Origin: Roseimaritima ulvae
Lineage (GTDB): Bacteria > Planctomycetota > Planctomycetia > Pirellulales > Pirellulaceae
Reading direction: 5' to 3'
Length of the DNA: 64,000 nt
Assembly (NCBI RefSeq): GCF_008065135.1
Contig: NZ_CP042914.1
Coordinates: 1,240,001 to 1,304,000 of the forward strand
Each line of letters opens with the position of its first letter. The first letter of the stretch is position 1. The notes below the pieces were generated by a model. That model saw only the letters and a list, made by a program, of their open reading frames with translations, did not search any database and was not told where the DNA came from. Made by a program: the position numbers and the translations under genes. This document shows, in pieces, positions 43,118 through 59,432 of this stretch.

Positions 43118-43740
43118 GATGGCTCACCTTTTAACGAGAGTGGAGACGACGTAATCAAGACTTCAAGTTCGGCAATGATGTCCGCAGGTGGCAGGCAGGC
43201 CAGATCATTGCATGCCTGGAATTGAACCGTGATGGTTAGCGTGACCGTGCTCGGTTTCGGGTCGGCAAATCGTATGGAAAGAGGAACCGCAATCGAATTG
43301 CGGTACACGGGCTTCCCATCTTCGATCAACTCGGCCTTGGGGATCTGTATCGGCTCGACATTCACCGCCTTGTCGTCGGCGAGCACGTTCACACTTAGCG
43401 GAGTAAATGGGCTTCGAGATTCGACCAAACCATATATGAAAAAACCGGGCTCAATCGTGATTTCGATTGGGACTTTCACTTCTTTCGCCGTGTCCAATGC
43501 TTGGTCCGGCAAAGCGGCAGTTACGGTAACGTGGCCAGCCTTGCTCGCAGTGTTGACCGATTGGATGTGCCGGACCCGCCATTGGATTTCCGATGGTATC
43601 ATCGTAGACGCGTCCAGCTGAGCGTGCGGCTTTTGATTGCAGCCGACCAAGGCGATTGCAAGCAATCCGGCTAGCAACGTGATAACGCCAACGTGCGGAG
43701 CATCCAGTACTGTCGCAGTCATGCGGCCAGAGCGAAGCAT
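43114..43740 (-). CDS. Lipoprotein with DsbD N-terminal (alpha)-like domain
   Basis: About 208 residues. A hydrophobic segment ends in LVGC, a lipobox, so the protein should be lipid-anchored and periplasmic. The rest is an Ig-like fold resembling DsbD-alpha: PIEITIEPGFFIYG near the middle and QACNDLACLPP near the end, where DsbD carries its redox-active Cys pair. In DsbD that domain passes electrons to periplasmic thiol partners; here no DsbD membrane part or thioredoxin domain is present, so it may act alone or with a partner elsewhere. The ATG at 43738-43740 has AGGGG 6 bases upstream, better than the further ATGs. It is the first gene of a coupled pair with the unknown secreted protein. 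Confidence 0.8.
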   Translation of the reverse strand: MLRSGRMTATVLDAPHVGVITLLAGLLAIALVGCNQKPHAQLDASTMIPSEIQWRVRHIQSVNTASKAGHVTVTAALPDQALDTAKEVKVPIEITIEPGFFIYGLVESRSPFTPLSVNVLADDKAVNVEPIQIPKAELIEDGKPVYRNSIAVPLSIRFADPKPSTVTLTITVQFQACNDLACLPPADIIAELEVLITSSPLSLKGEPS

Positions 43741-43927
43741 GGTCATCCCCTGGAGTATGGAATCGCGGAACCTGATCTTACCACAGCGGAACTCGATGAG
43801 TGTCCTCGACAGGTCCGCGATTTGGATGCCGCGTTTCAATCCCTGTCGTGTCGTTCACGCTGCTGCGACCTGTTCTTCGGCTCGGGAAGTAGGAGGATAG
43901 GGGGCGGGAAGGTCAAGGATTCCAAAC

Positions 43928-44389
43928 ATGCCAAGTGAAAACCCCTATCAGCCGCCTGATCCAGAGACGCCTTTGGCCGTTGCTCCTACCGTAGGACAAC
44001 CGGCGGTGGGCGGCGTCGGGTGGTGGTGGGTGTTGGGGGCCTCCGTGATTGCGGCAATTGCGGGCGTCGTCGGTCGGCTTGTGCGACCGCTGATCTCTGG
44101 CCCCGTCCACTACGAAGCGATCGTGGGCTTGGTGCTGATGATCTTGGTCTGCGTCGTCTTACTGGTGCGATTCCGCAAGTTCCCGCGGCCACAGGGCATC
44201 TTTTTCTATCTCACCGGCACCCTCGCGATTTGGGCAGCGCACGTGGGCGGCTGGATGATTGCCCATGGCGAAATTTGGGCGGATGTCGTGTGGGTGAATT
44301 TGGCCTGCAACGCGGTGGCCGCGCTCGTCGGCTGTGTGACTTTGTTTTTGCCCCGCAGCGGTCGGCAGCCGCATTTTCCACCCTCCTAA
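43928..44389 (+). CDS. Small membrane protein with NPYQPP N-terminus
   Basis: A 153-residue protein whose soluble N-terminus (SENPYQPPDPE) is of the NPYxxP kind common in planctomycete membrane proteins. Four hydrophobic segments follow: ~32-52, ~64-82, ~90-108 and ~117-138. The function is unknown. AAGGA lies about 9 bases before the ATG. It is divergent from the DsbD-like gene, with about 190 bases between them, and ends near a repeat-containing gap. Confidence 0.75.
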   Translation: MPSENPYQPPDPETPLAVAPTVGQPAVGGVGWWWVLGASVIAAIAGVVGRLVRPLISGPVHYEAIVGLVLMILVCVVLLVRFRKFPRPQGIFFYLTGTLAIWAAHVGGWMIAHGEIWADVVWVNLACNAVAALVGCVTLFLPRSGRQPHFPPS

Positions 44390-44437
44390 TTTTCCTACCT
44401 CCGAACTTTATCGCCGGGCGCTCCTTGGTCAGTTCCG

Positions 44438-44471
44438 GTCTCCGCGGATGTTGAAGGACAGAGGAATGGGG
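44438..44471 (+). repeat. Dispersed repeat ending GGACAGAGGAATGGGG, copy 1
   Basis: The 34 bases starting GTCTCCGCGG and ending GACAGAGGAATGGGG match 48848-48881 with only a few differences. Related GACAGGAAGATGGGG units lie near 40077-40100. It sits between the ends of two converging genes. Confidence 0.55.
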
Positions 44472-44616
44472 TAGACCGCTGTTCCTTTTGGCAGGATGAA
44501 TACAGCGGGTAGGCGTCATCGTTTGCGACTCTTCACCAAATGGACAGCCTCTCCCCTTTGGTCTCTCCCGTAGGTCGTTCGCCCGGTTCAGACAATCGCA
44601 GAAAAGTGGCGATCGC

Positions 44617-45363
44617 TTACAGTCGAAAGCGGACGGGGAGGATTTCTTCGGAGGCGATGGAGCGGCCAAAGCGTTGAGCGGGCTTTCCCTGCCACTGCTG
44701 GACGGCTTCGGCTGCAGCCATGTCCAACGTTTGGTGCCCGCTAGATTTCAAGATTTCCACTTCCACGACTTTTCCCTCAAGATCGACGCGAAGCCGCAGC
44801 GTTACGGTGCCCTCGAGTCGTTGGCGGACCGCGGAGGCCGGGTATTGAGGAGGGCGGTTGGCGGAAAAATCGGCTGGCGTCTTCGGTTCCAATCCCACTG
44901 CCTGAGCTAGCGGAACGATGTCCACCGACGGCGGCGTGCTCTGGCTGGCCATTCGCCGCGGAAGCGTCTCTTGCTGCTGCGTTTTGACCTCTGGCAGTTC
45001 TGGCGGAGGTGGGCGACGCACGCTTACGAACTCGGGCGTGGGCGGCGCCTGTACCGACGCCGGCAAGTCGGCTGGCCGCATGGGCACATCGGCTCGCGCC
45101 GGGACCGTGGGAGTTAGCGATTGAGCTCGTTCCGGCGGCAGCGGCTCGGCTTGCGAAACCGGATCGACGCGCGAAAGCGTGAGGGTCGTAGCGGAAACGT
45201 TAGGAGCTGGCGGGCTGGCAAGTCGCAGCGAGATCGCGGTGACCCGCTGTTGACCCGTGGGACGAAAACGTTCGTAAATCGTCAACGGCAAGCACCACAG
45301 CGTGGCGGCAGCGATCGCGTGAATAAGCAGCGATATGCACGTCGAGCGAAGGGGAAGATTCAT
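44617..45363 (-). CDS. tonB: TonB-family energy transducer
   Basis: A 248-residue inner-membrane protein that links the proton-motive force to outer-membrane receptors. It has one N-terminal membrane helix (~8-30, LLIHAIAAATLWCLPL), a Pro-rich periplasmic spacer (~60-165) and a C-terminal TonB domain (~172-248) with YPASAVRQRLEGTVTLRLR and the later SGHQTLDMAAAEAVQQW segment. The ATG overlaps the stop of hemP (ATGA), so the two are coupled, and a TonB-dependent receptor starts on the other strand 530 bases away. ExbB and ExbD, which TonB needs, are not in the window. Confidence 0.92.
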   Translation of the reverse strand: MNLPLRSTCISLLIHAIAAATLWCLPLTIYERFRPTGQQRVTAISLRLASPPAPNVSATTLTLSRVDPVSQAEPLPPERAQSLTPTVPARADVPMRPADLPASVQAPPTPEFVSVRRPPPPELPEVKTQQQETLPRRMASQSTPPSVDIVPLAQAVGLEPKTPADFSANRPPQYPASAVRQRLEGTVTLRLRVDLEGKVVEVEILKSSGHQTLDMAAAEAVQQWQGKPAQRFGRSIASEEILPVRFRL

Positions 45364-45566
45364 TTACACAAGTATAACTTGCCCGACGTGGTGCGTCGAA
45401 GCCGGTACATCTGATCGTGGTGCTTGATCCAGACCTCGTTGCGACCGAGAAAAAGATCTTGCGAGGCCAGCACACGCGGTGGCTCATGTTCGGCGCGCGG
45501 CCGGTCAGTTGAATCGAGGTTCGGTGGGACCGAATTCAGGGCGGGAGGATCATCAGGGGCACTCAT
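45360..45566 (-). CDS. hemP: Hemin uptake protein HemP family
   Basis: A 68-residue protein whose last ~35 residues match the HemP family: LFLGRNEVWIKH followed by MYRLRRTTSGKLYL, the usual short beta-hairpin with conserved G-x-x-x-V/I-x-I-x-H...YxLR. The first ~30 residues are a Pro-rich, likely disordered tail. HemP genes typically accompany heme receptors and TonB, as here. I chose the ATG at 45564-45566 because the frame upstream has no resemblance to the family and would double the length. It overlaps tonB by four bases. Confidence 0.85.
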   Translation of the reverse strand: MSAPDDPPALNSVPPNLDSTDRPRAEHEPPRVLASQDLFLGRNEVWIKHHDQMYRLRRTTSGKLYLCK

Positions 45567-45895
45567 GTTGCTCGTGTAACGCAGATCACGTGCCAATGAG
45601 CGTGTGCCCATGGATGTGCGTGCAATGACGGAGCAAAATAGGGGCGTGGGGCGTTTCGGTAAGTCCCACTCGAGTGCAATGGCGGTGGAATTTGCGCCCT
45701 GGTAGCTGGGTTTTCCGCCGCCGCCAGCGGGTTGCCTCAATGGGGGGCGCGGTTATGCAGGCTGTAGCGGTTGTCGCGCAAATTCCAAAGCGTGGGTGCG
45801 GGCCCCACCGATCTGAAGCATAGAAACAAATGTAACGATGTTGATGCCTAGCACTGTCGCGATGGTTGCAGATTGTTACCCGATAAGAGTCTCTC
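45567..45895. other. Divergent regulatory region between hemP-tonB and the receptor gene
   Basis: About 330 bases that must hold the promoters for both directions. I looked for a Fur box (GATAATGATAATCATTATC type) and did not find a convincing one on either strand. No gene is evident. Confidence 0.5.
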
Positions 45896-48325
45896 ATGCT
45901 GTTCAAGACGGAAACCCCCTTCAAGCTGGCGCTCGCTGGCCTAACCGTGTTTGTCTGGCAGGCCGCGGCCACTGCCCAGGATGCGACCCTGCCGCCCATC
46001 GAAGTCCGCCCACCCGCTCAACAGCCGTCGCCGGCGACCGATGGATCCGTCGATCCTCAAACACCTTCGCAAAACGCTGCGGACGCCGGAACTCCGCCGC
46101 TCGTCACCGATCCGGTCCAACCGCCTCGCTTGGACGGGCCGGTGGTTTCCAACGGTGCCGGCGAGCCCGCTGTGTCCGGCGCCTTCGAGGATCTGCCCGC
46201 GGCCCCACAATCGCAAGTCAATGGCGCAAATCAAACGGGCAGCGGCGTCTACAGTGAAGCCTTCCCATCGCTGGGCGAATCGCTGTTGGGAGGCACGATC
46301 AACGATCCGACCGGATTGAATAGTGCGGTACGCTCGCCCAGCAATTTGTTCGACACACCACGCTTGGGAACGGTTGTCGATCGTGAAGACCTGGACCGCC
46401 GCCACGCCAGCACGGTATATCGCGCCCTGCAGAACGAAGTCGGCGTGATGCTGCAGCAGACCGGTAACGGACAATTATCGCCCTACATCCGCGGATTGAC
46501 CGGCCAACAGGTTTTGATTTTGGTCGACGGGATCCGTATGAATACCAGCATCCTGCGCCCAGGGCCGAACCAGTACGCCGCCACGATCGACCCAGGTTCG
46601 ATTGAACGCGTGGAGATCATCCGCGGTGCCGAGTCCGCGCTGTGGGGCAGCGATGCCATCGGCGGCGTCATCAACTTCGTGACTCGCAGTGCGGACCCCA
46701 CTCGCGGCAATTACTGCAGTCCCTACGTCAACCAGATCTACAGCACGGCCGAAGCTTCGTCGTACACGCGGACCGGATTCAGCGGTTGGTACGGTGCCAC
46801 GGGGATCACCGGCGGTGTGTCGTACTTGGATGTGGGCGAACTGGACCGAGGCGGCGATTTTGGTCGCCAACCGGGTACGGACTATGAACAGTATGCCGGT
46901 GACCTGAAGCTGCAACGCGTGCTGGCTGGCGAACACCTGCTGACGATCGCGATGCAACACTTCGAACAGAACGATCTGAAACGCAGTGACCGGTTCCTGC
47001 CGTTTGTGCTGGGACCGCCCACCAACGGTGTCATTCCCACGCAGCGGCCCACGTACTTTGATCCCCAACAACGGAACTTGTTGTATGGACGATTGGAAGG
47101 TCTGCTGGCCGAGGACGTAGGGTTTGCGGACGTCTACTCGATCACCTTTTCCGGTATGCGCACCAAAGAAGCATCGGTTGTCGATCGCTATTCGGGCAAC
47201 GATCCGGCCGCCGTGGTGACGCGACGCGAGATCGGCGAGTTCGACGATCTGGGCTGGGGCACGGTTCTGTCCTTCAGGAAGGACCTGGACGACTTTGGCA
47301 AGCTGACCTACGGAACCGACTTCTACAGCGAATCGATCGATGCAGAGCGGACGCGGATCGACGATCCCGACGCGCCGGGGGCCACGCCCGTGCCCACCGA
47401 TCCTCAGTATCCCGATGACTCGCAGGCCGACCGCGTGGGCGTGTATGCGTCCTGGTACGTGCCGCTGACCTCGCGGTTGGACGCGACCACCTCGGTTCGC
47501 TACGAGAATATTAATATCTCCGGCACGCCCAACTTTGATACCCTTGGTCCGACCTACTTTGAACGGTCGTACCAGGACTGGATCGCCAGCATCGGGTTGA
47601 CCTACGAACTGACCGATCACCTGCGGTTGGTGGGGGGCTACTACGAAGGCTTCCGAGCACCGACCATCGACGACCTGACGGCCAACAAAACGTTTTTGCA
47701 GAACAACCAATCCACACCCTTGGTGGGCAACCTCAATGTCGAACCGGAACACAGCCAGACCTACGAGGTGGGCGCCAAGTTCAACTACGACCGTTTGCGG
47801 CTGCAGGTGACCGAGTTCTGGACCGACTTCGATAGCTATATCAATCGAGAAGTGATCGGTGGGGAGCGGTTCTTGACCAACCAGCAGGCATACTTGAATG
47901 GTACAGAACTAGCCGGTGAGTACCTGCTCCATCGGAATGTGGCCCTGTACGGAAACTTCTACTACACCTATGGCTTGGTCACCAGCAACGACGACCCAAT
48001 TGCCCGGATTCCACCCACGCAGGGCATCCTGGGTTTGCGATTCGACGACTACGCCAGCGGTTCGTACTGCGATGTCTACACCTGGATGGTGGATCGTGCT
48101 GACCGCTACGCCGAGTCTAATTTGGGAGACTCCCGGTTCATCGCTGGCGGAACGCCGGGCTACGCGACGTTGAACCTGCGGTGCGGACGGTCCTTCGGTG
48201 ATCAGCACCGTCATCGCGTGTCGCTGGCACTGGAAAACATTACCGACAAGTACTATCGGGTGCTCGGCAGTGGCGTCGATGGGCCAGGATTCAATGCAAT
48301 TTTCGGCTACCAGTTGACGCTCTAG
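45896..48325 (+). CDS. TonB-dependent outer membrane receptor, probably heme/iron
   Basis: An 809-residue beta-barrel receptor. Signal peptide ~1-27 (ends AAATA), then a possible TonB box (LPPIEVRPP) and a Pro/Gln-rich linker. The plug domain (~160-270) has SPYIRGLTGQQVLILVDGIR and the SIERVEIIRGAESALWG segment. The barrel ends in an aromatic-rich C-terminus (FGYQLTL). EGFRAPTIDDL (near residue 585) followed by NLNVEPEHSQTYEVG matches the FRAP and NPNL-type boxes of heme/hemoglobin receptors. With hemP and tonB next door, heme uptake is the best guess; another iron chelate or a different ligand is possible. Confidence 0.9.
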   Translation: MLFKTETPFKLALAGLTVFVWQAAATAQDATLPPIEVRPPAQQPSPATDGSVDPQTPSQNAADAGTPPLVTDPVQPPRLDGPVVSNGAGEPAVSGAFEDLPAAPQSQVNGANQTGSGVYSEAFPSLGESLLGGTINDPTGLNSAVRSPSNLFDTPRLGTVVDREDLDRRHASTVYRALQNEVGVMLQQTGNGQLSPYIRGLTGQQVLILVDGIRMNTSILRPGPNQYAATIDPGSIERVEIIRGAESALWGSDAIGGVINFVTRSADPTRGNYCSPYVNQIYSTAEASSYTRTGFSGWYGATGITGGVSYLDVGELDRGGDFGRQPGTDYEQYAGDLKLQRVLAGEHLLTIAMQHFEQNDLKRSDRFLPFVLGPPTNGVIPTQRPTYFDPQQRNLLYGRLEGLLAEDVGFADVYSITFSGMRTKEASVVDRYSGNDPAAVVTRREIGEFDDLGWGTVLSFRKDLDDFGKLTYGTDFYSESIDAERTRIDDPDAPGATPVPTDPQYPDDSQADRVGVYASWYVPLTSRLDATTSVRYENINISGTPNFDTLGPTYFERSYQDWIASIGLTYELTDHLRLVGGYYEGFRAPTIDDLTANKTFLQNNQSTPLVGNLNVEPEHSQTYEVGAKFNYDRLRLQVTEFWTDFDSYINREVIGGERFLTNQQAYLNGTELAGEYLLHRNVALYGNFYYTYGLVTSNDDPIARIPPTQGILGLRFDDYASGSYCDVYTWMVDRADRYAESNLGDSRFIAGGTPGYATLNLRCGRSFGDQHRHRVSLALENITDKYYRVLGSGVDGPGFNAIFGYQLTL

Positions 48326-48351
48326 GTCCTGGCTTCGTTCACCCTCAGGCT

Positions 48352-48549
48352 CTAATTCGGCTCAGGAGCGGGACCGCTTGTTCCCGTGACGTTGTAGAGG
48401 CCGTCGTCAATACCTTCGACGCCATAGTAGATCGCGAAGCCTCGTAGGGTGTCGCCGGTGTAGGTGTAGGGGACTTGGACCGTTTCGTTTACCTCGACCT
48501 GCTGGGGGGCGCATCCTACGAGCCGCGGCAGTCGGCAATGGCGCGGTGA
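48352..48549 (-). pseudogene. Remnant of a small lipoprotein-like gene
   Basis: One minus-strand frame reads a lipobox-like LVGC, then a tail of about 50 residues (APQQVEVNETVQVPYTYTG ... IYYGVEGIDDGLYNVTG) and a TAG stop at 48352-48354. No ATG, GTG or TTG start with a signal segment is found before a stop codon, so it is probably the eroded 3' part of a short secreted protein. It could also be chance; confidence is low. Confidence 0.3.
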
Positions 48550-48640
48550 CGGTTCTCACGCTATTCCCGAAGAGAATTTCAGATAGTAGCCGGTGGTCAG
48601 CGCAGCGCCACCACCGGAAACAAACGGGCAAAACCGGGCC

Positions 48641-48749
48641 CCCCTCTCCCCCAAAACAAGCTTACAAATAACAGGTTTGATTCCAACGCTACCGCTTGTT
48701 TTCTAGGTCAATCGACACCGCTGCAAAGGCTTGTTTTGGGGGAGAGGGG
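48641..48749. repeat. Long perfect inverted repeat
   Basis: CCCCTCTCCCCCAAAACAAG+C (48641-48661) is the exact reverse complement of 48729-48749; the 21-bp arms are 67 bases apart. The same kind of element, with the core CTCCCCCAAAAC, recurs at 59264-59344. It lies in a 660-base gap without a complete gene, between the receptor gene and the sulfatase gene. The remaining DNA of that gap is unremarkable. Confidence 0.8.
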
Positions 48750-48847
48750 CTGGGGGTGAGGGGGCGACCGAGCAGTCCAGGTGAGCCGTGTGAGAGCTGA
48801 CACTATTGCCCCCATCCCCTTTTCTCCACATCCCCTTATCTCCACCG

Positions 48848-48881
48848 GTCTCCACGGCGGTCGAACGACAGAGGAATGGGG
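48848..48881 (+). repeat. Dispersed repeat ending GACAGAGGAATGGGG, copy 2
   Basis: Second copy of the 44438-44471 unit, followed by a partial tandem GGACAGGGGAATGGGGG. Confidence 0.55.
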
Positions 48882-48989
48882 GACAGGGGAATGGGGGAAT
48901 TGACTACCTTCCCGTTCCCGACCGCCGGCAGCTGAATTAGGATGGCGAGCGACTGCTATCCACGTGCACACGTTTATTCAAGGCTCGTC

Positions 48990-51900
48990 ATGTTTCGACC
49001 ATTTGTCCTCGTGAGCGGATTCGTTTGGGCTCTACTGAGCTGTTTGGCCCAGGCCGATGATCCGGCTTCGCCCCCCGTGGCGCCGGCGAATGGCTCTTCC
49101 CCCAACGTGCTGTTCATCGCCATGGATGATCTGAACGATTGGATCGGCTGTCTGGGAGGCCACCCGCAAACGATTACGCCGAATCTTGACCGACTGGCTG
49201 CCAGCGGAGTGCTGTTCCGCAACGCCCACTGCCCCGCTCCGGCTTGCAATCCCTGCCGATCGGCGATCTTTACCGGACGCGCGCCGCATCGCAGCGGGAT
49301 GTACGACAATCGTCAAAAAATGCGCGAGGTGATGCCCGACGACATCATCATTCCGCAGTACTTCCGTAATCACGGGTACCGCGCGGCCGGTTCGGGCAAG
49401 ATGCTGCACTACTTCATCGACGCGCCGTCCTGGGACGAATACTTCCCCAAGGCCGCTTCCGAAAACCCTTTGCCCCAGACGTTTTACCCCACCAAGCGAC
49501 CGGTTAATTTGCCGCGTGGTGGTCCCTGGCAGTACGTCGAAACCGATTGGGCGGCGTTGGATGTGACGGACGAAGAGTTCGGTGGCGATTGGTCGGTCAG
49601 TAAGTGGGTCGGCGATCAGTTGGGCCGCGAACATGATCAACCGTTCTTTCTAGCCTGCGGTATCTATCGCCCGCACGAACCCTGGTTTGTTCCCAAGAAA
49701 TATTACGAGCCGTTTCCGCTGGACAGCATTCAATTGCCGCCCGGTTACAAAGAAAACGATCTGGATGACGTGCCTGCGATGGGCGTGCGAGCGGCGCGGA
49801 ATCGCTACTTCGCTCACATCCAAGAACAAGATCAATGGAAGCAGGGCGTGCAGGGTTACCTGGCGTCGATCCATTTCGCCGACGCCATGCTGGGCCGCGT
49901 CTTGGACGCTCTGGAATCGGGACCCAATGCGGACAATACCATCGTCGTGTTGTGGTCCGACCATGGTTGGCAGCTGGGCGAGAAGGAGCACTGGCAGAAG
50001 TACACGCCTTGGCGAGCCGTGACGCGGGTGCCGTTGATGGTTCGCGTGCCACCGTCGAGCAGCGCCGCGCTGCCGAGCGGAACTCACGCGGGCACGGTTT
50101 GTGATGCTCCGGTGAACCTATTGAGCCTTTATCCCACGTTGCTGGATCTGTGTGAGCTGCCCGCCAAATCGGACAATGACGGCGTCAGTCTATTGCCGCT
50201 GCTGGGCTCTGCGACGGGCGACAGAGCAACGCCGGTCAGCGAAGAAGTTTGGCCTCATCGTTCGGTGACGTATCTGGCACGGCCGGGCAGCTATGCCGTC
50301 AGCGGTCGGAAGCATCGTTACATCCACTATGCCGATGGCAGCGAAGAGTTGTACGACATCGTAGCCGACCCGTACGAATGGACGAATCTGGCCGGCGAGG
50401 AATCATCGGCAAACATCCTCGCCGATTTCCGCGGCACCTCACCGACCGAGTTTGCACCGCGAGTGGAGCCGTCGGTCCAGTCGCTGGCAAAGCTTTCGTG
50501 GCATCCCCTGGCCGAAGACAGCGCTCCGCCTTCCAAGCCGGATGGCAATCCCTTTCCCGTTTTCTTTACCAACATGCAGCGTGCGACGGTCGAACTGTTC
50601 TGGATGGATTCCGACGGCAAGCCCAAGTCTTACGGCACGATCAAACCGGGCGCCCGCAAGACACAGTCGACGCGTCCCGGCGCGGTGTGGATGGTTCAGG
50701 ATGCGAGCGACAACAAGCCGCTGGGGTATTTCCGCATCGGCGACCGCACGGCGCAAGCGGTGATTCCGGCGGCCAAGCCGAACGTAGTGGTGATTCTGAC
50801 CGACGATCACGGTTGGGCCGATCTGGGCTGCCAGGACATCGTCGATGATATTCGCACGCCGCATATCGACGCCTTGGCCGCTCGAGGAGTGCGTTGTACG
50901 TCGGCTTATGTGACCGCGCCGCAGTGCAGTCCGTCACGCGTGGGGTTGATCACCGGACGGCATCAGCAACGCTTTGGAATCGACACCAATCCCGATATGC
51001 CAATGCCCACTAGCGCGGTGACGATCGCCGAGCGGTTGAGGCCTTTGGGGTATCGAACCGGTTTGGTTGGCAAGTGGCATTTGCAACCCAATCCCACTTG
51101 TCGCGACTGGGTTCAGCGGGAACTTCCCGGACAGGCCAAGCTGCCGCCCCGACAAGTAAAGATTCCTTGGGACAAAATGCGTCCCTATTCGCCGGCGGCG
51201 CAGGGTTTTGACGAATACTATTGGGGCCCGCTGCGGAACTATCGAGCTAATTTCGACTTGCAGACCCACGAACTATTGCCGCAAATGAAGCAGGTTGCCA
51301 ATAGCGACTTTCGTATCGACGTGCAAACTGAAGCGGCCGTCAGCTTTATCGACCGCAACCACGACCAGCCCTTTTATCTGCAGCTGAACTACTACGGTCC
51401 GCACACACCGCTGCAAGCCACGCAGAAGTATCTGGATCGGTTTCCTGGCGAGATGCCCAAGCGACGCCGGTATGCATTGGCGATGATCTCCGCGATCGAC
51501 GACGGCGTCGGACGCGTGGTGCAGCGGTTGAAGCAGCACGGCCAGTTGGACAATACATTGATCGTGATGACTAGCGACAACGGCGCGCCGCTGAAGATGA
51601 CCAAGCCGGACACGCCGATCGGCCGCGATCCCGGCGGCTGGGACGGTTCGTTGAACGATCCCTGGGTAGGAGAGAAAGGCATGTTGTCCGAGGGCGGTCT
51701 TCGCGTGCCGATGATCTGGAGTCTGCCCAGCCAGTTGCCCAGTGGTCGCAGTTACGACTGGCCGGTCAGTACGTTGGACATCGCGCCTAGTGTGCTGCAA
51801 CTGGCCGGCGGAGACCTCCAGCAGGCGGCCGAAGAACTGGATGGGCTCAATATCTTTCCGCGTCTGAACAGCATTCAAATCCCATCGACGCGAACCCTGT

Positions 51901-52154
51901 ACTTTCGGTTCTGGGATCAAGCGGCGATCCGTCGCGGCAAGTGGAAATACATCTATGTGGGGGCCGGACAGAGGTATTTGTTTGACCTGGAAAGCGACCA
52001 GCACGAACATCAGAACCTGATCGACAAGCATCCGGAATTAGCCGCGTCGCTGCATCAAGCTTTGCAGGAGTGGTCGGACGATTTGACCCCGGCCGGACTG
52101 CCGACAGGAGAGCACCAACGGGAGCAGAAGTGGTATAGGTTTTATTTTGAATGA
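48990..52154 (+). CDS. Two-domain sulfatase fusion with a pVHL-like linker domain
   Basis: A 1054-residue secreted protein with a signal peptide (~1-22, ends LAQA). The first sulfatase (~37-510) has the metal-site Asp pair in FIAMDDLND and the formylglycine motif CNPCR with Cys86; it resembles iduronate-2-sulfatase-like enzymes. Residues ~520-595 look like a von Hippel-Lindau beta domain. The second sulfatase (~597-1040) begins VVVILTDDHGWADLG and has CSPSR with Cys646. Both need maturation of that Cys to formylglycine by an FGE or anaerobic enzyme not in this window. Sulfated polysaccharide breakdown in the periplasm or outside the cell is likely. The ATG at 48990 fits the signal peptide and has AAGG 6 bases before it; the in-frame ATG at 48942 has no signal. 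Confidence 0.92.
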   Translation: MFRPFVLVSGFVWALLSCLAQADDPASPPVAPANGSSPNVLFIAMDDLNDWIGCLGGHPQTITPNLDRLAASGVLFRNAHCPAPACNPCRSAIFTGRAPHRSGMYDNRQKMREVMPDDIIIPQYFRNHGYRAAGSGKMLHYFIDAPSWDEYFPKAASENPLPQTFYPTKRPVNLPRGGPWQYVETDWAALDVTDEEFGGDWSVSKWVGDQLGREHDQPFFLACGIYRPHEPWFVPKKYYEPFPLDSIQLPPGYKENDLDDVPAMGVRAARNRYFAHIQEQDQWKQGVQGYLASIHFADAMLGRVLDALESGPNADNTIVVLWSDHGWQLGEKEHWQKYTPWRAVTRVPLMVRVPPSSSAALPSGTHAGTVCDAPVNLLSLYPTLLDLCELPAKSDNDGVSLLPLLGSATGDRATPVSEEVWPHRSVTYLARPGSYAVSGRKHRYIHYADGSEELYDIVADPYEWTNLAGEESSANILADFRGTSPTEFAPRVEPSVQSLAKLSWHPLAEDSAPPSKPDGNPFPVFFTNMQRATVELFWMDSDGKPKSYGTIKPGARKTQSTRPGAVWMVQDASDNKPLGYFRIGDRTAQAVIPAAKPNVVVILTDDHGWADLGCQDIVDDIRTPHIDALAARGVRCTSAYVTAPQCSPSRVGLITGRHQQRFGIDTNPDMPMPTSAVTIAERLRPLGYRTGLVGKWHLQPNPTCRDWVQRELPGQAKLPPRQVKIPWDKMRPYSPAAQGFDEYYWGPLRNYRANFDLQTHELLPQMKQVANSDFRIDVQTEAAVSFIDRNHDQPFYLQLNYYGPHTPLQATQKYLDRFPGEMPKRRRYALAMISAIDDGVGRVVQRLKQHGQLDNTLIVMTSDNGAPLKMTKPDTPIGRDPGGWDGSLNDPWVGEKGMLSEGGLRVPMIWSLPSQLPSGRSYDWPVSTLDIAPSVLQLAGGDLQQAAEELDGLNIFPRLNSIQIPSTRTLYFRFWDQAAIRRGKWKYIYVGAGQRYLFDLESDQHEHQNLIDKHPELAASLHQALQEWSDDLTPAGLPTGEHQREQKWYRFYFE

Positions 52155-52329
52155 TGGTGGGGCGTGGGGTTTGCAAAACGGGAAGTCACTGATTTCCGCC
52201 GGGATTGCAGGCGATTGGTTTCATCGTTTAACCCGCAGCCGAAGGCGCAGGCGAATACGTTCAACACTAACAAGGGCCATGCACCGCACCTTACCCCCGA
52301 CCACAACCATTCGCTCTACAGGTATACTT

Positions 52330-52923
52330 ATGGAAACGGAAGCCGTCCATGCGCAACATCGTGATGAGCTTGTGCGAAGCCTCAAGCAGTTTTCATTATC
52401 CTACCAACAGCATCAACTGATTCACTCTTCCGATTTTGGACCGCTGGTCTCCGATATCCAATCGAAACGCAGGGTGTTTACCATCCTGTTGGCGATACTC
52501 GCTCTGTTCTTGACGTTCAAAACCGTTCGCGGCCTACTGACATCCTCGCCATATTTACATTGGCTAGTCTTGGCTGTGCTCACCGGCCTTTGGGTATTCC
52601 GGAGATACGCCAAGATGAGCCGTCTTGTTTCGGCGTATGGCGATTACCTTGGCACGGCCGGAGAAGCAGCGCGTCGCGGCAATTCACTTGCAAGCGAACT
52701 GAAGCTCGGATTCAACCTGGATTATCCAGAGCACCAAGTCCCAACGGGACGACATGAATTTGGGGCCGCCGCGGACTCCTGTCGCCCCGTTGAGGCTTGG
52801 TGCGGGTGGATTTCTCGCAACCATGGGCTCGCGCCCATGGCTACAATCCGCCGTCCCTTCGGGACTAAGAACGAAAGCCCAAGGTGGGGCTTCCGCAACC
52901 CTTTAGGAGCCCCAGTTCCTTAA
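52330..52923 (+). CDS. Membrane protein whose C-terminus runs into a palindromic repeat
   Basis: About 197 residues. The N-terminal ~60 are soluble (METEAVHAQHRDELVRSLKQ), followed by two membrane helices (~57-78 and ~80-100). From about residue 137 the frame enters the dispersed repeat at 52738-52868, so the last ~60 residues (for example RNHGLAPMATIRRPFG) are repeat-derived. The original stop may have been lost when the repeat inserted. I use the ATG at 52330; an in-frame ATG at 52147 adds a weak leader. Function unknown. Confidence 0.55.
   Translation: METEAVHAQHRDELVRSLKQFSLSYQQHQLIHSSDFGPLVSDIQSKRRVFTILLAILALFLTFKTVRGLLTSSPYLHWLVLAVLTGLWVFRRYAKMSRLVSAYGDYLGTAGEAARRGNSLASELKLGFNLDYPEHQVPTGRHEFGAAADSCRPVEAWCGWISRNHGLAPMATIRRPFGTKNESPRWGFRNPLGAPVP
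52738..52868 (-). repeat. Composite palindromic repeat, copy B (inverted)
   Basis: This matches copy A (1882-2011) in reverse complement over about 130 bases: GTCCCAACGGGACGACAT, the GGGGCC block, CTGTCGCCCCGTTG, the CCATGGGC/GCCCATGG stem, and CGTCCCTTCGGGACTAA. Differences are often paired within stems. It lies inside the 3' part of the 52330-52923 reading frame. Confidence 0.8.
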
Positions 52924-53099
52924 GTCCACGCCATTCGGGGGCAAACCCGGCGGAAATGAAATGAGGACCAGCCCGACTTTCCCAACCTATTTATCGAACG
53001 TCCCCAGTGGTTGAAATGCGGCACAAAACTTGTTTGCCGGCCGCACATTGCAATTCTGTGAGCTAGGCTATCGTTGACTCAATATGTTAGAGCTGAACG

Positions 53100-53603
53100 A
53101 TGCTCGATATGTTTCTGGCTTACGGGTGGATCGCGATTGCGGTGTCTGCTGCGTTGGTCGCGGTACGGATTTGGGCCAAACGGAATTTTGATGGCCAGGT
53201 TCAGGATGTTCTTAGCGAAACGCAAGCGAGATTTGCTGGCGGCAACGTTGAGGTGCATTCCGTCAAAGCGGTCCGGACCATAACGGTTCAGGACGAAACC
53301 GCATTCTTGTATCACATCGACGCCACGATTGATCCTTCACAGGTGAATGTCGAGTGGTGCGGTGCGGATTTGTTCCTGCGAGGTACCGGCGGCGATCCAA
53401 ACCAGATCGGTGATGTGTTGAATCTGAAACGCTGGAACGGAGATTCGTTCGAGCCGCTTAAAAACAAAGCTCAACTTGTCGGAGCTCAGCGTTTGCTGCT
53501 ATCGATGCAAGTCGCCGGCGGCCCGGAACAAGTCAGGTTCAATTTCAACTTTGCCAACTTCGGACCCGTGATCGCATTGCCGGAAATGGAAGTCGCGGTC
53601 TGA
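53100..53603 (+). CDS. Hypothetical protein with one N-terminal membrane segment
   Basis: A 167-residue protein with one hydrophobic segment (~5-25, AYGWIAIAVSAALVAVRIW) and a soluble beta-rich remainder (~50-167). I do not recognise the fold. It starts a plus-strand run of small membrane or unknown proteins. The N-terminal segment could be a signal anchor. Confidence 0.65.
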   Translation: MLDMFLAYGWIAIAVSAALVAVRIWAKRNFDGQVQDVLSETQARFAGGNVEVHSVKAVRTITVQDETAFLYHIDATIDPSQVNVEWCGADLFLRGTGGDPNQIGDVLNLKRWNGDSFEPLKNKAQLVGAQRLLLSMQVAGGPEQVRFNFNFANFGPVIALPEMEVAV

Positions 53604-53791
53604 CGTTTACTTAGTTGCTTGCCATGAACATGGCCAGTATTGCTGAGTCCGATCGCTACGTCTCGCATCATGGGGATTTTGCAGCACCCCTTCTTTATTG
53701 GTACCCTGTATGTCCCGCAGGTTAGGTCCCACGATAGGGAACCACCTCCTTTAGTCAATGCGTTCCTGTTAGCAGCGAGTCGTAATGCGTA

Positions 53792-54715
53792 ATGGCAGTG
53801 AGCAATGTCGAAGGACTACTCGAACCCAAACGCAGTGTCTGGCTGTTCGTGTGTTCGGTCATTGTTTTGGCAGCATGCCTGGTGAGCATCTCTTTGGCAT
53901 TGGCGGCCTTTGCCGTTACCTGGGACCCGTGCTCGATCATGGGCGGTGTGCTCATGTTGCCGCCTCCCCTGGCTTTGGCGGTTCAGCAATATCGTGGCAC
54001 GTTTCGGTTTAACGCCAAGGCCGCCTCGGTATCGGCTGTGCTGCTATTCCTGGTTTGTGGTCTCGCTTTTGCTGCGCTCGCGACGACTCTGGTGGATTTA
54101 GTTTTTTCAGGGGTGCGAATTCCATGGCTGTCGTTGTTTCTCCCGCTGCTGGTTATCGGCACGTTGGGGGGCGTGTCCGCCAGCGTGAATCTTGCTTGGT
54201 CACGCCATCTGGAAAGAGCGACGAACGCCGACGGAGCTTCACTGGAGCGGACGCAGTATACGATGCGAGAGTTGCTTGTTGCTGTCGCTGCGATTGCCTG
54301 TATGACCACCCTGGTGATCTATCTCGTTCGCTCTACGCCTCCGCGATTTGCCGAGAATGTTTCCCGCGATGAGGCACCCTTTGGTCTGCCGGCCGAGGCC
54401 ACCGAGGTATCTTTTTGCCAGGGTTTCCGAGGCACGATCGCTTACGAATTTACGATTGATGAGTCGGGTTTCGTGGTGTGGGTGGAATCGGGAATCGGTT
54501 CGCTTGAATCCGCTTCGGCGAACGTTTCTGTTCAGCCCATCACGACGCCGTACTCGGTCCGACGGTATGATGCGCTAACGGCAAAAGTGACGGGAGCGGG
54601 AGCAATCACGATTACCGACGGTTTGTATTACGAGTGGTCGAAAGAAGACCGCGGAGTCTACGCGGCCTTTGACCGGACGACTAATCGGGCTTATTACTAC
54701 GCCCACTTTCACTGA
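53792..54715 (+). CDS. Polytopic membrane protein, unknown function
   Basis: A 307-residue protein with about five hydrophobic segments (~17-42, ~47-65, ~77-105, ~112-133 and ~155-175), the last inside YTMRELLVAVAAIACMTTLV, a sequence style (MRELLxxVAxxA) seen in many planctomycete membrane proteins. A soluble C-terminal domain of ~125 residues follows, beta-rich and without a recognised motif. It is 59 bases before the next membrane protein gene, so the two may be co-transcribed. Confidence 0.7.
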   Translation: MAVSNVEGLLEPKRSVWLFVCSVIVLAACLVSISLALAAFAVTWDPCSIMGGVLMLPPPLALAVQQYRGTFRFNAKAASVSAVLLFLVCGLAFAALATTLVDLVFSGVRIPWLSLFLPLLVIGTLGGVSASVNLAWSRHLERATNADGASLERTQYTMRELLVAVAAIACMTTLVIYLVRSTPPRFAENVSRDEAPFGLPAEATEVSFCQGFRGTIAYEFTIDESGFVVWVESGIGSLESASANVSVQPITTPYSVRRYDALTAKVTGAGAITITDGLYYEWSKEDRGVYAAFDRTTNRAYYYAHFH

Positions 54716-54774
54716 TCGAGGCCAGCGTACGATGCGATGCGCACCTGCAGGCGATTGAACGATTGGAAATAGGC

Positions 54775-55521
54775 ATGTCTACAAAAGCACTTTCGTTTCT
54801 TGCTCCGCTGGGCGCTATAGCTGCAGCCCTTTTTTCGTCGATGACCGGCTTTGCGGTAATGGGGCTCATCGGTGCCGCAATCAGCCAAGGTCAGGCGATG
54901 GTTTTTCCATCCACTCACTGGATCGGTGCGGTCGGATTGGTCCTGCTGGGAATCGGCGTGACGTCGGCCGCCCTGTCTCGCTGCTCGCGGTCCTCGCCTG
55001 CACGCGGCTTGTTGATTGCTGGCGCGGTGGCGTTTGCAATTGCAGTGCTTCTCATTGGGTTCGGCAATGGGCAGCTTTGGGGCGCTTTCCACAGCCTGGC
55101 AAGGGCAGAGACCGTCGATGCCACATCCTTTAATCTGGCTGCAGGTAAAGCCAATCTTCCCTTGCTCGTGGGCTGGGGCTTGGTGGTGTTGGGGGCTGTA
55201 TGCATCTTTGCGGCAGAGTTGTTTTCAAAGCCCTGCTCGCCATCTCGGTTACGATCAGCACGGAGTGCAATGGCCGTTGTCGCAGCATTGGGGGCAACGT
55301 TTGTTTTTGTAGTGGCCGGTTTGTGGAGCATCTTATCGTTGCGTGGCTTGGAAAGCGGTTTTGCGGCCCCTCAGATCGAGCCGGCTTCGATTGCTGCGGG
55401 CGTCAGCGGAGTGCTCAACGCCACCTTTCTCGTAGCGATAGGAATCGCCGGTTGCGCCCTGGCTTCGTTATTGATGGCCGTCAGCACCCATCAGACACCG
55501 CGGGAGGAAACGCTGGGATGA
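54775..55521 (+). CDS. Polytopic membrane protein, unknown function
   Basis: About 248 residues with six or so hydrophobic segments (~5-30, ~48-64, ~80-95, ~130-147, ~163-186 and ~205-230), the residues between them short and polar. The ATG four codons upstream (54763) is also possible. The stop overlaps the start of the next gene (ATGA), so they are coupled. No transport motif is recognised. Confidence 0.7.
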   Translation: MSTKALSFLAPLGAIAAALFSSMTGFAVMGLIGAAISQGQAMVFPSTHWIGAVGLVLLGIGVTSAALSRCSRSSPARGLLIAGAVAFAIAVLLIGFGNGQLWGAFHSLARAETVDATSFNLAAGKANLPLLVGWGLVVLGAVCIFAAELFSKPCSPSRLRSARSAMAVVAALGATFVFVVAGLWSILSLRGLESGFAAPQIEPASIAAGVSGVLNATFLVAIGIAGCALASLLMAVSTHQTPREETLG

Positions 55522-56039
55522 ATGAACTAGAGGGTGAATGGGAACTGGTTGGTTATTTCCATAAGACCGACGAGATCGAATACGACGACGCGGACGATGG
55601 CTCTAATGTTACGGAAATTCGTGCTTGGCTGCAGGGCGCTGAGCCTACAAACGCTTCGCTTGAGGCCGCGCAGCCGCGTGCGGGCTTGCAGCTCGCGATT
55701 CAACGCGGGGCTTTCCGTGAGTCGGTAGAGAACTTCTCGGAACTGATGTTCGATGTCTCCGGTGTGCAGGTGAATGACTATCAACCGATGTCTGGCCAGC
55801 TGGCGACCATCAACTCAGTGGCATTCCTGGTGCCTGAGGGCGTGCCGGAATTTGCGCGGACGGAACCTGCGGAGGACATCGTGGTGCGGTACGATGATGG
55901 GGACACCCTCGTGTGCGACAGCATGCGGATCGTTGATGGAATGCTCGTTCGGCAAACGTCGGTGGTGACCGATGAGATTTACTTGGAACGCATGTTGCTG
56001 ATGTATCGACGAGCGGATGACAGACATGCACAACGGTAG
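55518..56039 (+). CDS. Hypothetical soluble protein, possible lipocalin-like start
   Basis: A 173-residue soluble protein that begins MNELEGEWELVGYF, a GxWxLV pattern found at the first strand of lipocalin-like and related calycin folds. Alternating hydrophobic strands and a C-terminal EIYLERMLLMYRR fit a small beta-barrel, but no further match is visible. The ATG at 55518 overlaps the preceding stop codon and has GGAGG 10 bases upstream, which decides the start. It is probably made with the membrane protein before it. Confidence 0.65.
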   Translation: MNELEGEWELVGYFHKTDEIEYDDADDGSNVTEIRAWLQGAEPTNASLEAAQPRAGLQLAIQRGAFRESVENFSELMFDVSGVQVNDYQPMSGQLATINSVAFLVPEGVPEFARTEPAEDIVVRYDDGDTLVCDSMRIVDGMLVRQTSVVTDEIYLERMLLMYRRADDRHAQR

Positions 56040-56150
56040 CTGGGCCACCCCTCTGGTTTGTCGCGGCGCTCGCCAGGACGAAGGCAACGTTGGGCGTCCA
56101 CCTTCTGGCGAAGGTAGCTACGAAGAGCCTTCGAAGCATGGATTGCGGGA

Positions 56151-56645
56151 ATGAGTGATTTCTATCGTTACGAAAAGAAGCAGCGGCGGACCGCTATTAC
56201 GCTGCTGTTCAACATGCTCGTGCTGTTGTTGATGTACGGGGCTGCGCGAGCCTTGATCGAGCCGAGCGAGGAGGCCGAGCAATTATTCTTTTGGATGAAT
56301 ATTGCGTTGCCGGTCGTCGAACTGGTGCTGCTGCTTGGCGCCCTGTTCTTCTGGATTCAAAACGGCACGTTCCGGGTTTCGGTCGATGCCGAACGTTTTG
56401 AAATTGTAGATCCCCTGTTTAAGGATTTCTCGTTCTCTGTCCCGGTCAGCGAAATCGTCGAGATCCGACAAACGCATCAGAAACACCACAATTACAGCTC
56501 GATCATGATGTGCATGCAGTCGGGCGAAAAACATCAGATCACACAGAACTACCGCTACCACCGAGGCAAACTGTACGCCGCCTTGGCCAAAGCCAACGCG
56601 GACATTCAACTGCCCAAACATGCGTATCGGTCCAAGCAGGTCTGA
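56151..56645 (+). CDS. Membrane protein with bacterial PH-like domain
   Basis: A 164-residue protein with a charged N-terminus, two membrane helices (~14-36 and ~46-68) and a C-terminal ~95-residue domain that looks like a bacterial PH domain: FRVSVDAERFEIVDPLF then the VPVSEIVEIRQ strand, with the Ser-Ile-Ile and Thr-Gln-Asn strands after it. Such proteins often bind membranes or protein partners. The gene converges on the PQQ protein gene with a 2-base gap between the stops. Confidence 0.7.
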   Translation: MSDFYRYEKKQRRTAITLLFNMLVLLLMYGAARALIEPSEEAEQLFFWMNIALPVVELVLLLGALFFWIQNGTFRVSVDAERFEIVDPLFKDFSFSVPVSEIVEIRQTHQKHHNYSSIMMCMQSGEKHQITQNYRYHRGKLYAALAKANADIQLPKHAYRSKQV

Positions 56646-56647
56646 GC

Positions 56648-57949
56648 TTACTGCAAGGACGCGCTGACCAGTTGTTCGTCATTGCGTGCATAGATCACGC
56701 CATTGGCGATTGCTGGGTGCGCCCAGGTCACGCCGCCACGACGCGGCAATTGGATCTTGGTAGGAGCCAACAATTTCGTACGTGAGGATTCGCTGTAGCC
56801 GCTGGGCGAGACGGTGCCGAACACCAGTTCGCCCTGATCGTTCAACATGATCAGTCGTTGGCCGTCATGGATGGTGTGTACGGTAGCCCAGCGGGCTCGC
56901 GGCACGACCGCATCACTTTCCCAGACGCGATCCCCATTGGCTATCTTCAAGCAGCGGAGTTCGCCATAGCTGTCCGTGCCATAGACATAGTCGCCTTGTA
57001 AGAACGGAGTACCAATCATGCAGTGCAAAGCATCGGTGTTTTGTTCATCGCGGCCGACACGGTGCCACATTTTAGTCGCGGCAGGGCGATCGGCATCCAA
57101 CCGAATCATCATCGAACCGTCGTAGAATGAGGACACGAACAGGTGTTTGCCATCGGTCACCGGCGTGGCAATATTGATCGGCATATTTCGTGGTTTCAGC
57201 GGGATGTTCCAAAACACCTCACCAGTTTGTGGATTCAAGCCGCTGACACTGCCGCCGGTCCAACACACCACCACGTCCTGCCCGCCCTGCTGAATCACGA
57301 TCGGTGCGGAATAGCCAGCGGGTTCTTCGAGCGCCGACCAGACGGTTTCTCCGCTTTGCAAATCCATGGCGATCACACAGGCCTTGCCCTTGCCACCGGC
57401 GATCTGAATGATTTTGTTCTGATACACCAACGGGGCGCTGGCGATTCCCCAGATCGGCATCTGGATGTCCAGCTCGCTGGCCAAGTCGCGTTGCCAGAGA
57501 ACCTTGCCGGTTTCGACGTCCAAGCAATGAAAGTGTCCCATCGCCCCGACGGCCAACGCGCGGTCCCCATGCACGGTGACCGACGCCCGAGGTCCTGCCT
57601 TGTAGCCGATCGTATAAACCGCTTCGTAGACGTGGGACCATAGCTCTTTGCCGGTTGCCGCGTCGAAGCAGAGGATGCGTTCGGTTTGCTGTTTCTGGTC
57701 GGCTTGCCGATCGGTCAGGAAGACACGGCCCGCGGCGATTGTCGGCCCGCTATAGCCCGGTCCGACGGGAACCGTCCAACGCCGCGGCAGCGCGCCCTCG
57801 GGCAATGTTTGCATCAATCCCGGCTCGTCGATCACCCCATCACGTTGCAAACCACGCCACTGAGGCCAGTCATCCGCATGGGAGACGGCAGCGAGGCTAG
57901 AAAAGACGCAGCAAACAAACACGCAGGCTCTCATGATCGGGCTCAGCAA
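56648..57949 (-). CDS. Secreted PQQ-type beta-propeller protein
   Basis: A 433-residue protein with a signal peptide (~1-25, ends AAVSHA) and a WPQWRG motif just after it, the mark of a large planctomycete family. The rest has propeller blades with repeated A-x-D-x-x-T/S-G-x-x-x-W patterns (FDAATGKELWSHVY, LDVETGKVLWQRDL, MDLQSGETVWSALE, LNPQTGEVFWNIPL). This is the PQQ-like repeat of quinoprotein dehydrogenases and of BamB; no cofactor or catalytic residues can be assigned, so a scaffold or binding role is as likely as an enzyme. Confidence 0.88.
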   Translation of the reverse strand: MLSPIMRACVFVCCVFSSLAAVSHADDWPQWRGLQRDGVIDEPGLMQTLPEGALPRRWTVPVGPGYSGPTIAAGRVFLTDRQADQKQQTERILCFDAATGKELWSHVYEAVYTIGYKAGPRASVTVHGDRALAVGAMGHFHCLDVETGKVLWQRDLASELDIQMPIWGIASAPLVYQNKIIQIAGGKGKACVIAMDLQSGETVWSALEEPAGYSAPIVIQQGGQDVVVCWTGGSVSGLNPQTGEVFWNIPLKPRNMPINIATPVTDGKHLFVSSFYDGSMMIRLDADRPAATKMWHRVGRDEQNTDALHCMIGTPFLQGDYVYGTDSYGELRCLKIANGDRVWESDAVVPRARWATVHTIHDGQRLIMLNDQGELVFGTVSPSGYSESSRTKLLAPTKIQLPRRGGVTWAHPAIANGVIYARNDEQLVSASLQ

Positions 57950-58030
57950 TTGGCGGACGGACGGACCGGCGGGAGGCCAGTCGCTGCAGCCAGATTATAG
58001 CCCGTACGTCCGAGGGACATCCTGCGGAGC

Positions 58031-58477
58031 CTAATCTTCCATCACCGTCTTCAGAACCCGGTAGGCTTCGATGCTCTCGATGACTTCGGTCAGCCCGCCG
58101 GCTTGCTGGACGTGTTGCAAGATCTGCAGCAGGTTGTCGGCGCTGCCGGCTGCCGTGACCGCGGCTTTTAATTCTTCCAGTTTGTCGGCCGGGGGCAGCA
58201 GCGAAGCGGAATTGGAAGCGGACTTGGCCGCCGCGCCGCTCTGCTTTTTGCCGCGTGCCGCTCCCGCGGACTTCTTGGCCGGCTTGGCGGCCGCTGGCTT
58301 GCCGCTCTTTGGTTTAGCGGCGTCTGTTTTGCCGGCGTCTGTTTTGGGGCTCGACTTGGATGCGTCGTCCGCTGCCGGAGCCTGCGCTGCGGCGGTTTTT
58401 TCAGCAGGCTCGGTTTTCTCTGCGGTTTCGGCCTGTTCAGTCGGTTCGGCGGACGGGGCCGGATCGGAGTTTGCCAT
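58031..58477 (-). CDS. Lys/Ala/Pro-rich protein of unknown function
   Basis: A 148-residue protein. The first ~95 residues are low-complexity (Ala, Lys, Pro, Glu, Thr, Ser), with acidic then basic blocks like those of histone H1-like or DNA-binding tails. The last ~50 (PADKLEELKAAVTAAGSADN and IESIEAYRVLKTVMED) form a short helical domain. It could be a nucleoid-associated or ribosome-linked accessory protein; there is no direct evidence. Confidence 0.65.
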   Translation of the reverse strand: MANSDPAPSAEPTEQAETAEKTEPAEKTAAAQAPAADDASKSSPKTDAGKTDAAKPKSGKPAAAKPAKKSAGAARGKKQSGAAAKSASNSASLLPPADKLEELKAAVTAAGSADNLLQILQHVQQAGGLTEVIESIEAYRVLKTVMED

Positions 58478-58622
58478 CGGTGTCGGGGGCGCCTAGGTGC
58501 GGGGGAACAAGTGCGGGAGTGGAACTGGAAAACGCCACAATCAAACGTTTTGTCCGACGGCTGTCAAGCGGCGAGCTCGCCGTGGCTTGTCGCTTGCCGC
58601 CTGCTCGACTACACTCGTTTAT

Positions 58623-58646
58623 GCACCTTTCGGTATAGAATGGTGC
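58623..58646. promoter_or_regulatory. Possible promoter/operator before the Rrf2 gene
   Basis: GCACC (58623-58627) and GGTGC (58642-58646) form an inverted repeat around TATAGAAT, a likely -10 element, about 30-50 bases before the Rrf2 start. Rrf2 regulators often control their own promoters, so this could be its binding site. Confidence 0.3.
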
Positions 58647-58675
58647 GGGGTCTTCTTTGAATACGGGAACAGGGC

Positions 58676-59098: not shown

Positions 59099-59116
59099 GC
59101 GTCGTCCCTCGCCAAA

Positions 59117-59140
59117 GTAGCATGGGCCCCTGGCCCGTGT
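59117..59140 (-). repeat. Inverted single copy of the CATGCTAC-type repeat
   Basis: GTAGCATGGGCCCCTGGCCC (59117-59136) with its flank is the reverse complement, with two changes, of the tandem unit at 59352-59406. It is close to the 3' end of the Rrf2 gene. Confidence 0.6.
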
Positions 59141-59344: not shown

Positions 59345-59351
59345 ATGCTGC

Positions 59352-59406: not shown

Positions 59407-59432
59407 CGGGGAGACGGGCTACGTTAGTGGTT

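Follow-up and report, generated by a model that had tools for sequence, protein, structure and literature searches.

Several systems have been described that come close to a gene of the planctomycete Roseimaritima ulvae which encodes two sulfatases with a domain like that of the human von Hippel-Lindau protein (pVHL) between them. The gene lies at positions 48990 to 52154 of the window, which here means the whole 64,000-nucleotide stretch that was analysed (contig NZ_CP042914.1, positions 1,240,001 to 1,304,000). Planctomycetes from Porphyra have single genes with two unlike sulfatase domains, the first half similar to arylsulfatase A and the second to choline sulfatase or iduronate-2-sulfatase, which the authors suppose to have arisen by fusion (PMC4807772, available text). 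Here, too, one gene holds two unlike sulfatases, but the order of the types looks reversed, as far as a comparison by description instead of protein sequence can tell, and the main text of that paper mentions neither vhl nor hippel. A VHL beta domain has been reported from the bacterium Litorilituus sediminis, in a hypothetical protein that is predicted to be secreted and that the authors read as a tumour suppressor (PMC9002001, available text). That protein shares with the present one a bacterial origin, the predicted secretion and the VHL beta domain, but the word sulfatase is absent from the available text. Two-sulfatase genes in Planctomycetes and a bacterial VHL domain are thus known already from what is available of these two papers.

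Among solved structures, the closest relative of the first sulfatase (sulfatase A) is FA22070 from Formosa, an S1_7 ulvan-specific sulfatase by its title (6hhm, phmmer E 2.6e-48). The closest relatives of the second (sulfatase B) are, again by their titles, the carrageenan sulfatases Ps i-CgsB and PsS1_19B of the S1_19 kind (6bia, 6prm and 6b0j, E 2.5e-60 to 7.6e-59). Unlike the present protein, all of these are named as single sulfatases, with no VHL mentioned. The classes S1_7 and S1_19 used below are those of the nearest solved relatives and not a placement in the SulfAtlas subfamily tree. A further comparison is with the S9/DPP-IV-type peptidases of the same phyla, which are also hydrolases and carry a domain of the same VHL family; unlike in the fusion, their VHL domain precedes the DPPIV_N match (L002/L052, L202) and keeps its hydroxyproline pocket. 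In a literature search that covered few subscription papers, no paper among the matches listed dealt with VHL in the sulfatases or peptidases of these phyla, which is weak evidence of absence, and the main text of a paper that surveys the architectures of prokaryotic prolyl oligopeptidases (PMC4522959) mentions neither vhl nor hippel.

The gene is a single open frame of 1054 amino acids on the plus strand, undivided in all 14 aligned complete orthologues (its own genome included), with an alternative earlier in-frame ATG at 48942. Residues 1-22 (48990..49055) read by eye as a probable Sec signal peptide with a guessed cleavage after ...CLAQA, and the protein is probably secreted. Along the chain, Pfam finds a sulfatase, VHL and a second sulfatase (PF00884 for the sulfatase stretches, E 2.6e-93). 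The S1_7-like sulfatase A takes up about residues 37-480 (49098..50429) and has its formylglycine motif CNPCR at residues 86-90 (49245..49259), while the S1_19-like sulfatase B takes up about residues 597-1050 (50778..52139) and has the motif CSPSR at residues 646-650 (50925..50939); both assignments come from Pfam and the solved relatives. C86, N87, P88 and R90 are invariant in the 14 orthologues, of which 11 have CNPCR and 3 have CNPSR, and the second motif is invariant throughout (C646, S647, P648, S649, R650). The same is true for D46, D47, C86, R90, K137, H229, D324 and H325 in sulfatase A and for D605, D606, C646, R650, K695, H697, H805, D863, N864 and K896 in sulfatase B, which presumably form the metal and substrate sites. 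Both halves carry the C-x-P/A-x-R formylglycine motif together with metal-site residues, and the genome has seven FGE-sulfatase matches in six frames. These comparisons show the identities of the domains and intact active-site signatures in both, and the preliminary description, which had seen two sulfatase domains with separate formylglycine cysteines, was right in this.

From the last Pfam match of sulfatase A (residue 479) to the start of sulfatase B (597) there is a gap of about 117 residues; the VHL domain makes up about 75 of them, so that the pVHL-like stretch of about 75 residues that had been proposed to join the two enzymes is indeed there. It covers about residues 517-595 (50538..50774; Pfam, phmmer, AlphaFold2 and Foldseek). 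The joint to sulfatase A is SKPDG at residues 515-519 (50532..50546), where S, P and G are nearly invariant, each kept at no less than 90% in 63 sulfatase-linked segments, and the orthologue alignment leaves almost no linker between the last VHL strand and sulfatase B. The Pfam family of the pVHL beta domain, PF01847, matches residues 523-578 of the whole protein (E 1.1e-8), and the 110-amino-acid linker taken alone scores 40.1 bits (E 3.7e-10), passing the curated cut-off of 21. A phmmer comparison of the linker with PDB sequences gave 26 matches, led by 24 pVHL sequences (E 6.4e-5 to 4.4e-4); the remaining two are unrelated, with E about 1 (next-best E 0.99). The alignment with human pVHL is gapless from N78 to W117 (pVHL numbering), and the letters quoted earlier for the two proteins align as written. 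An AlphaFold2 model of the linker, made with 63 aligned segments, has one short N-terminal strand and seven further strands (pLDDT 89.2, pTM 0.78), and of its 75 Foldseek matches in the PDB with E up to 0.001, each of the best 50 is an entry that includes VHL, the top one with E 8.5e-7 and TM values reaching 0.77 by query length. On the strength of the PF01847 score, the pVHL matches, the confident model and the all-VHL Foldseek matches, the linker is confirmed, at the level of sequence and predicted fold, as a true relative of the human pVHL beta domain with a pVHL-type sandwich. Unlike its human counterpart, it lies within a bacterial and apparently secreted sulfatase. Pfam includes a VHL alpha-domain model, and no family of this elongin C-binding domain is among the matches of the protein at E up to 1; the chain after the beta domain runs straight into sulfatase B.

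The arrangement had been thought special. A search of the family (241 genomes, matches listed in E-value order) with the junction as query gave a full-length match, to residue 243 or 244 of 244, in 16 genomes from five genera, the genome of R. ulvae included, among the matches listed. It is therefore a conserved gene, and the junction is 67-74% identical in the other 15 genomes. Two of the 16 loci run into a contig end (G444 and G436), and two genomes with the same undivided frame are single-contig assemblies (G570 and G560). In two more genomes (G530 and G528) the VHL part matches and the frame is just as long, but there the second sulfatase is related to sulfatase A (about 41%) and not to B. 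Planctomycetes bacterium CA13 (L116) and Pirellula metagenome-assembled genomes (L103, L104) are among the named carriers of the A-VHL-B layout, and in 8 of 16 fusion loci examined BLAST finds another sulfatase gene nearby. A spread through the whole order is ruled out by a sample of 296 of its genomes, where the full junction was found only in the own genome and in G444, of the same family, among the matches listed. The idea of a singleton, to which the six best A-side matches would point since they stop near query residue 596, was overturned by the junction search.

How the VHL domain came to lie between two enzymes can be read from the relatives of sulfatase A, of which the best 80 named of 515 confirmed were compared. 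BLAST finds a VHL segment behind the sulfatase in 68 of the 80 (two of these largely masked), mostly at the C-terminus, and these relatives belong to Planctomycetota, Verrucomicrobiota and Kiritimatiellota. No segment was found by BLAST in the other 12, one of which (L178) is cut by a contig end. The A-VHL-B layout is present in six of the 80, L105 being truncated by a contig end, and the other fusion in one (L122); L175 has sulfatase A fused to another sulfatase with no VHL detected by BLAST, and L129 and L135 have extra sulfatases ahead of sulfatase A. The frame in L129 (3438-6653, 1072 aa) consists of two sulfatase domains followed by a VHL-like segment, and that in L135 (1189-5706, 1506 aa) of three sulfatase domains, by our own reading, followed by such a segment; the VHL ends of the two were recognised by BLAST, at 56 and 60% identity, and are not listed by Pfam at E up to 0.001.

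A tree of 94 sulfatase A rows, built by a quick method with SH-aLRT support only, requires two changes for the A-VHL-B label, of which the starred branches force only one, and sets the other fusion type apart from it, as a single starred clade. The tree leaves out L143, L168, L137, L178, L151 and the contig-cut fusion L102, as well as the copies L045, L086, L088, L090, L095, L096 and L098, represented respectively by L130, L116, L103, L112, L104, L105 and L122; the segment alignment (A4) omits six of the 68, namely L143, L144, L149, L158, L167 and L168. Genome G555 has a stand-alone orthologue of sulfatase B (489-aa frame, 69% identity) and, on a different contig, a 581-aa frame whose match to the junction is confined to the VHL part, the sulfatase half of this frame being outside the comparison. 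Six unfused A-VHL loci have B-like neighbours that are at most 28% identical to B. Because of the layouts of the relatives, the tree, G555 and these unfused loci, the VHL module is judged to be old in the sulfatase A family, with at least two separate additions of a sulfatase behind it. The order of events shown by these comparisons is VHL with sulfatase A first and sulfatase B later. As VHL is normally a terminal part of a single family of sulfatases, its place between two enzymes is a later addition. The earlier picture of a pVHL-like domain between two secreted enzymes stands in so far as the domain does lie between two complete sulfatases and secretion is plausible.

What the domain may do depends on its pocket. 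The hydroxyproline site of pVHL includes the side chains of Trp88, Tyr98, His110, Ser111, His115 and Trp117, and Ser111 and His115 hydrogen-bond the hydroxyl of the hydroxyproline (PMC9528729, available text). At these six positions the domain of R. ulvae has W, Y, S, T, A and W. The equivalents of Trp88, Tyr98 and Trp117 are thus kept (W538, Y548, W567) and Ser111 is kept as Thr (T561), but, unlike in human pVHL, Ala stands for His115 (A565) and Arg for Tyr112 (R562); of the pocket residues Trp88, Tyr98, Ser111, His115 and Trp117, it is His115 that is missing. The pattern is shared by most of the 67 sulfatase-linked domains that were aligned, with W88 in 58, Y98 in 52, S or T at 111 in 61 and W117 in 66, while position 115 is Ala in 55 and His in 2 (L160 and L162), and position 112 is Arg in 62. 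The number is 67 and not 69 because L143 and L168, which have X across the VHL region, were left out. The misplaced row L197 was kept out of the pocket count, and L196 and L197 out of alignment A6. The split is not a clean one, as two of six further sulfatase-linked rows keep His115 (L200 and L221), and in L200 the VHL domain lies ahead of the sulfatase.

The reading that we put forward, and to which we give an even chance, is that of a secreted bifunctional sulfatase for two kinds of sulfate ester, in which a retuned VHL sandwich would serve as a non-catalytic module for binding, docking or bracing. An S1_7-like sulfatase A with an old C-terminal pVHL-type sandwich would have had the S1_19-like sulfatase B fused directly behind it. 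The secreted protein would act on a sulfated polysaccharide, with the two halves removing two kinds of sulfate ester in sequence. The VHL pocket, retuned by the changes of His115 to Ala and Tyr112 to Arg, would no longer read hydroxyproline, and the domain would bind an anionic glycan or brace both enzymes. Here we infer the secretion, the substrate class, the sequential action and the ligand of the VHL domain. The earlier suggestion that the protein is secreted and has a domain for binding or docking remains plausible. The conserved SKPDG joint and the start of sulfatase B right after the last VHL strand speak for a compact body, and not for beads on a string. There are points that weigh against our reading. 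With E up to 0.01, PF01847 matches 46 of the 63 sulfatase-linked segments and misses 17, so that part of the VHL-bearing sulfatase family is placed by BLAST kinship alone. The model of the full-length protein (pLDDT 64.5, pTM 0.48) is too weak to show how the three domains are arranged. Neither the clustering over 41000-60000 nor the frames of the window gave a second sulfatase close to the fusion, so that its neighbourhood lends no support to a polysaccharide cluster. Finally, the strong conservation of TRPGAVW could reflect packing against sulfatase A instead of ligand binding.

This last point leads to the view that the VHL domain is purely structural, has no ligand of its own, packs on sulfatase A, and spaces and fixes the two enzymes, which we consider rather unlikely, if by no means far-fetched. 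It would agree with the VHL segment behind sulfatase A in 68 of the 80 relatives, with the high conservation of the joint and of the last-strand residues, with the near absence of a linker before sulfatase B, and with the fact that the best kept columns of the sulfatase-linked domains are N78, F76, G114 and W117 while H115 is lost. However, a spacer has no obvious need for the Arg at 112 and the Thr or Ser at 111 that are so widely kept on what is the ligand face of pVHL (PMC9528729, available text), and since 12 of the 80 relatives show no VHL segment, L178 being contig-cut, sulfatase A seems to fold without it.

It is improbable, in our estimate, that the domain has remained a reader of hydroxyproline, or of proline-rich glycoproteins in the extracellular matrix of algae or animals, and docks the two enzymes on such targets. 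Four of the pocket residues have their equivalents, His115 persists in the few sulfatase-linked rows named above, and the pocket is intact in the related VHL domains of S9 peptidases. In 54 non-sulfatase domains from two phyla, W88, Y98 and His115 are present in all 54, and S or T at 111 and W117 in 53 each. These 54 were found through the VHL profile, 30 of them being the best-scoring of their search plus the second copy of the own genome, so that the set is biased. A hypergeometric test of how many pocket residues fall in the six most conserved columns gives p 6e-4 for the 54 non-sulfatase and 0.52 for the 67 sulfatase-linked domains; the columns depend on one another and the VHL profile was used to choose the 54, so S9 loci chosen without the profile weigh more. 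Such a check was made with 30 genes, the S9-VHL gene of the own genome and its best S9 relatives, chosen by their S9 part, a sample that partly overlaps the 54 (by the own gene at least). Nineteen of the 30 match a pattern of N78, W88, Y98, T, S or M at 111 and W or F at 117, with 115 left free, and all 19 have His at 115. L235 and L239 have, by eye, a divergent VHL domain with the His. The other nine unmatched ones comprise L234 and L238 without the domain, L228 cut by a contig end, and six that were unread. Judging from these alignments, VHL is an optional part of S9 peptidases, and His115 is kept in all 21 recognised cases. For the sulfatase fusion, in contrast, the residue that directly hydrogen-bonds the hydroxyproline hydroxyl in pVHL (PMC9528729, available text) is Ala, as it is in 55 of the 67, and Tyr112 is Arg in 62. 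Hydroxyproline reading by the middle domain, as suggested in the preliminary description, appears disfavoured for that reason.

That an assembly or stop-codon artefact led to two adjacent genes being misread as one might be thought of as unfused A-VHL genes are common (e.g. L044-L049), but it has next to no chance of being right, as the fusion recurs in the 15 other genomes with the junction identity given above, twice in single-contig assemblies, and as the six unfused loci have no close relative of B near A-VHL (best 28% identity); artefact and stop loss alike are ruled out by this conservation, and the gene is one gene.

The VHL domains outside sulfatases are mostly found in S9/DPP-IV-type peptidases, among those examined. 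PF01847 exceeds its cut-off in 56 of 392 sampled genomes of Planctomycetota, the phylum of the window; for the phylum of L109 (Verrucomicrobiales) the figure is 18 of 240. A first set comprised the best 30 of the 77 VHL matches besides that of the window, that is, 29 loci and the second copy of the own genome, with L017, a near copy of L016, left out of the alignment (A1). Its 29 VHL proteins, the own second copy included, match DPPIV_N in 23 cases and Peptidase_S9 in 21, many of them being cut by the ends of the loci. For the 29 VHL proteins of a second set together with seven extra genomes, the numbers are 20 with DPPIV_N, 20 with Peptidase_S9 and 5 with Sulfatase. The second VHL domain of R. 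ulvae (C1:4345918-4346082) lies in an S9/DPP-IV-type peptidase of 895 amino acids (L052:9346-12033), and its pocket is complete (W, Y, T, H, W). From such alignments, bacterial S9 peptidases may carry hydroxyproline readers. Two 2OG-FeII_Oxy_3 genes (PF13640; C1:1937439-1937687 and C1:5008994-5009236), of the family to which prolyl 4-hydroxylases belong, are a possible home source of hydroxyproline. Two other VHL proteins are of a different kind, one (L032:559-2457) having the metallopeptidase-like profiles ATLF and M90 above cut-off and the other (L024:526-1776) the ATLF profile below cut-off.

As to the surroundings of the fusion, the nearest large upstream gene encodes a TonB-dependent receptor (45896-48325, plus strand, Pfam). 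Beside it lies a frame on the minus strand that by eye is TonB-like, and the pair spans 44617-48325, just upstream of the fusion. A convergent neighbour of the fusion is common to five loci (L083, L085, L089, L091 and L094), and in L094, the single one tested, it is a PhyH-type 2-oxoglutarate dioxygenase by Pfam; as a hydroxylase partner it was given no weight, being convergent and found in few relatives only. Farther upstream in the window, two giant frames are adjacent on the plus strand (3156-21431, 6091 aa, and 21528-39539, 6003 aa). The first 4000 amino acids of each match pre-peptidase C-terminal domains, and the second also Matrixin (M10) and a Planctomycete extracellular motif.

Tentatively, and with somewhat less than an even chance in our view, the VHL fold can be proposed as an old bacterial module for extracellular recognition. 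It would be a working hydroxyproline reader in the S9/DPP-IV-type peptidases of Planctomycetota and Verrucomicrobiota, where it would steer a prolyl-type peptidase to hydroxyproline-rich proteins, and its pocket would have been retuned in the sulfatases for another, probably sulfated, ligand. If this is true, the hydroxyproline reader of animal oxygen sensing, in which the reading of hydroxyproline by pVHL is the key step, is a borrowed or inherited version of a bacterial feeding tool. The peptidases that keep the pocket and the sulfatases, most of which have its key residue replaced, form a natural comparison for the rise of this reader and for possible other targets of the fold. The fusion itself, if it acts as a natural two-step desulfating enzyme, would serve the breakdown of algal polysaccharides.

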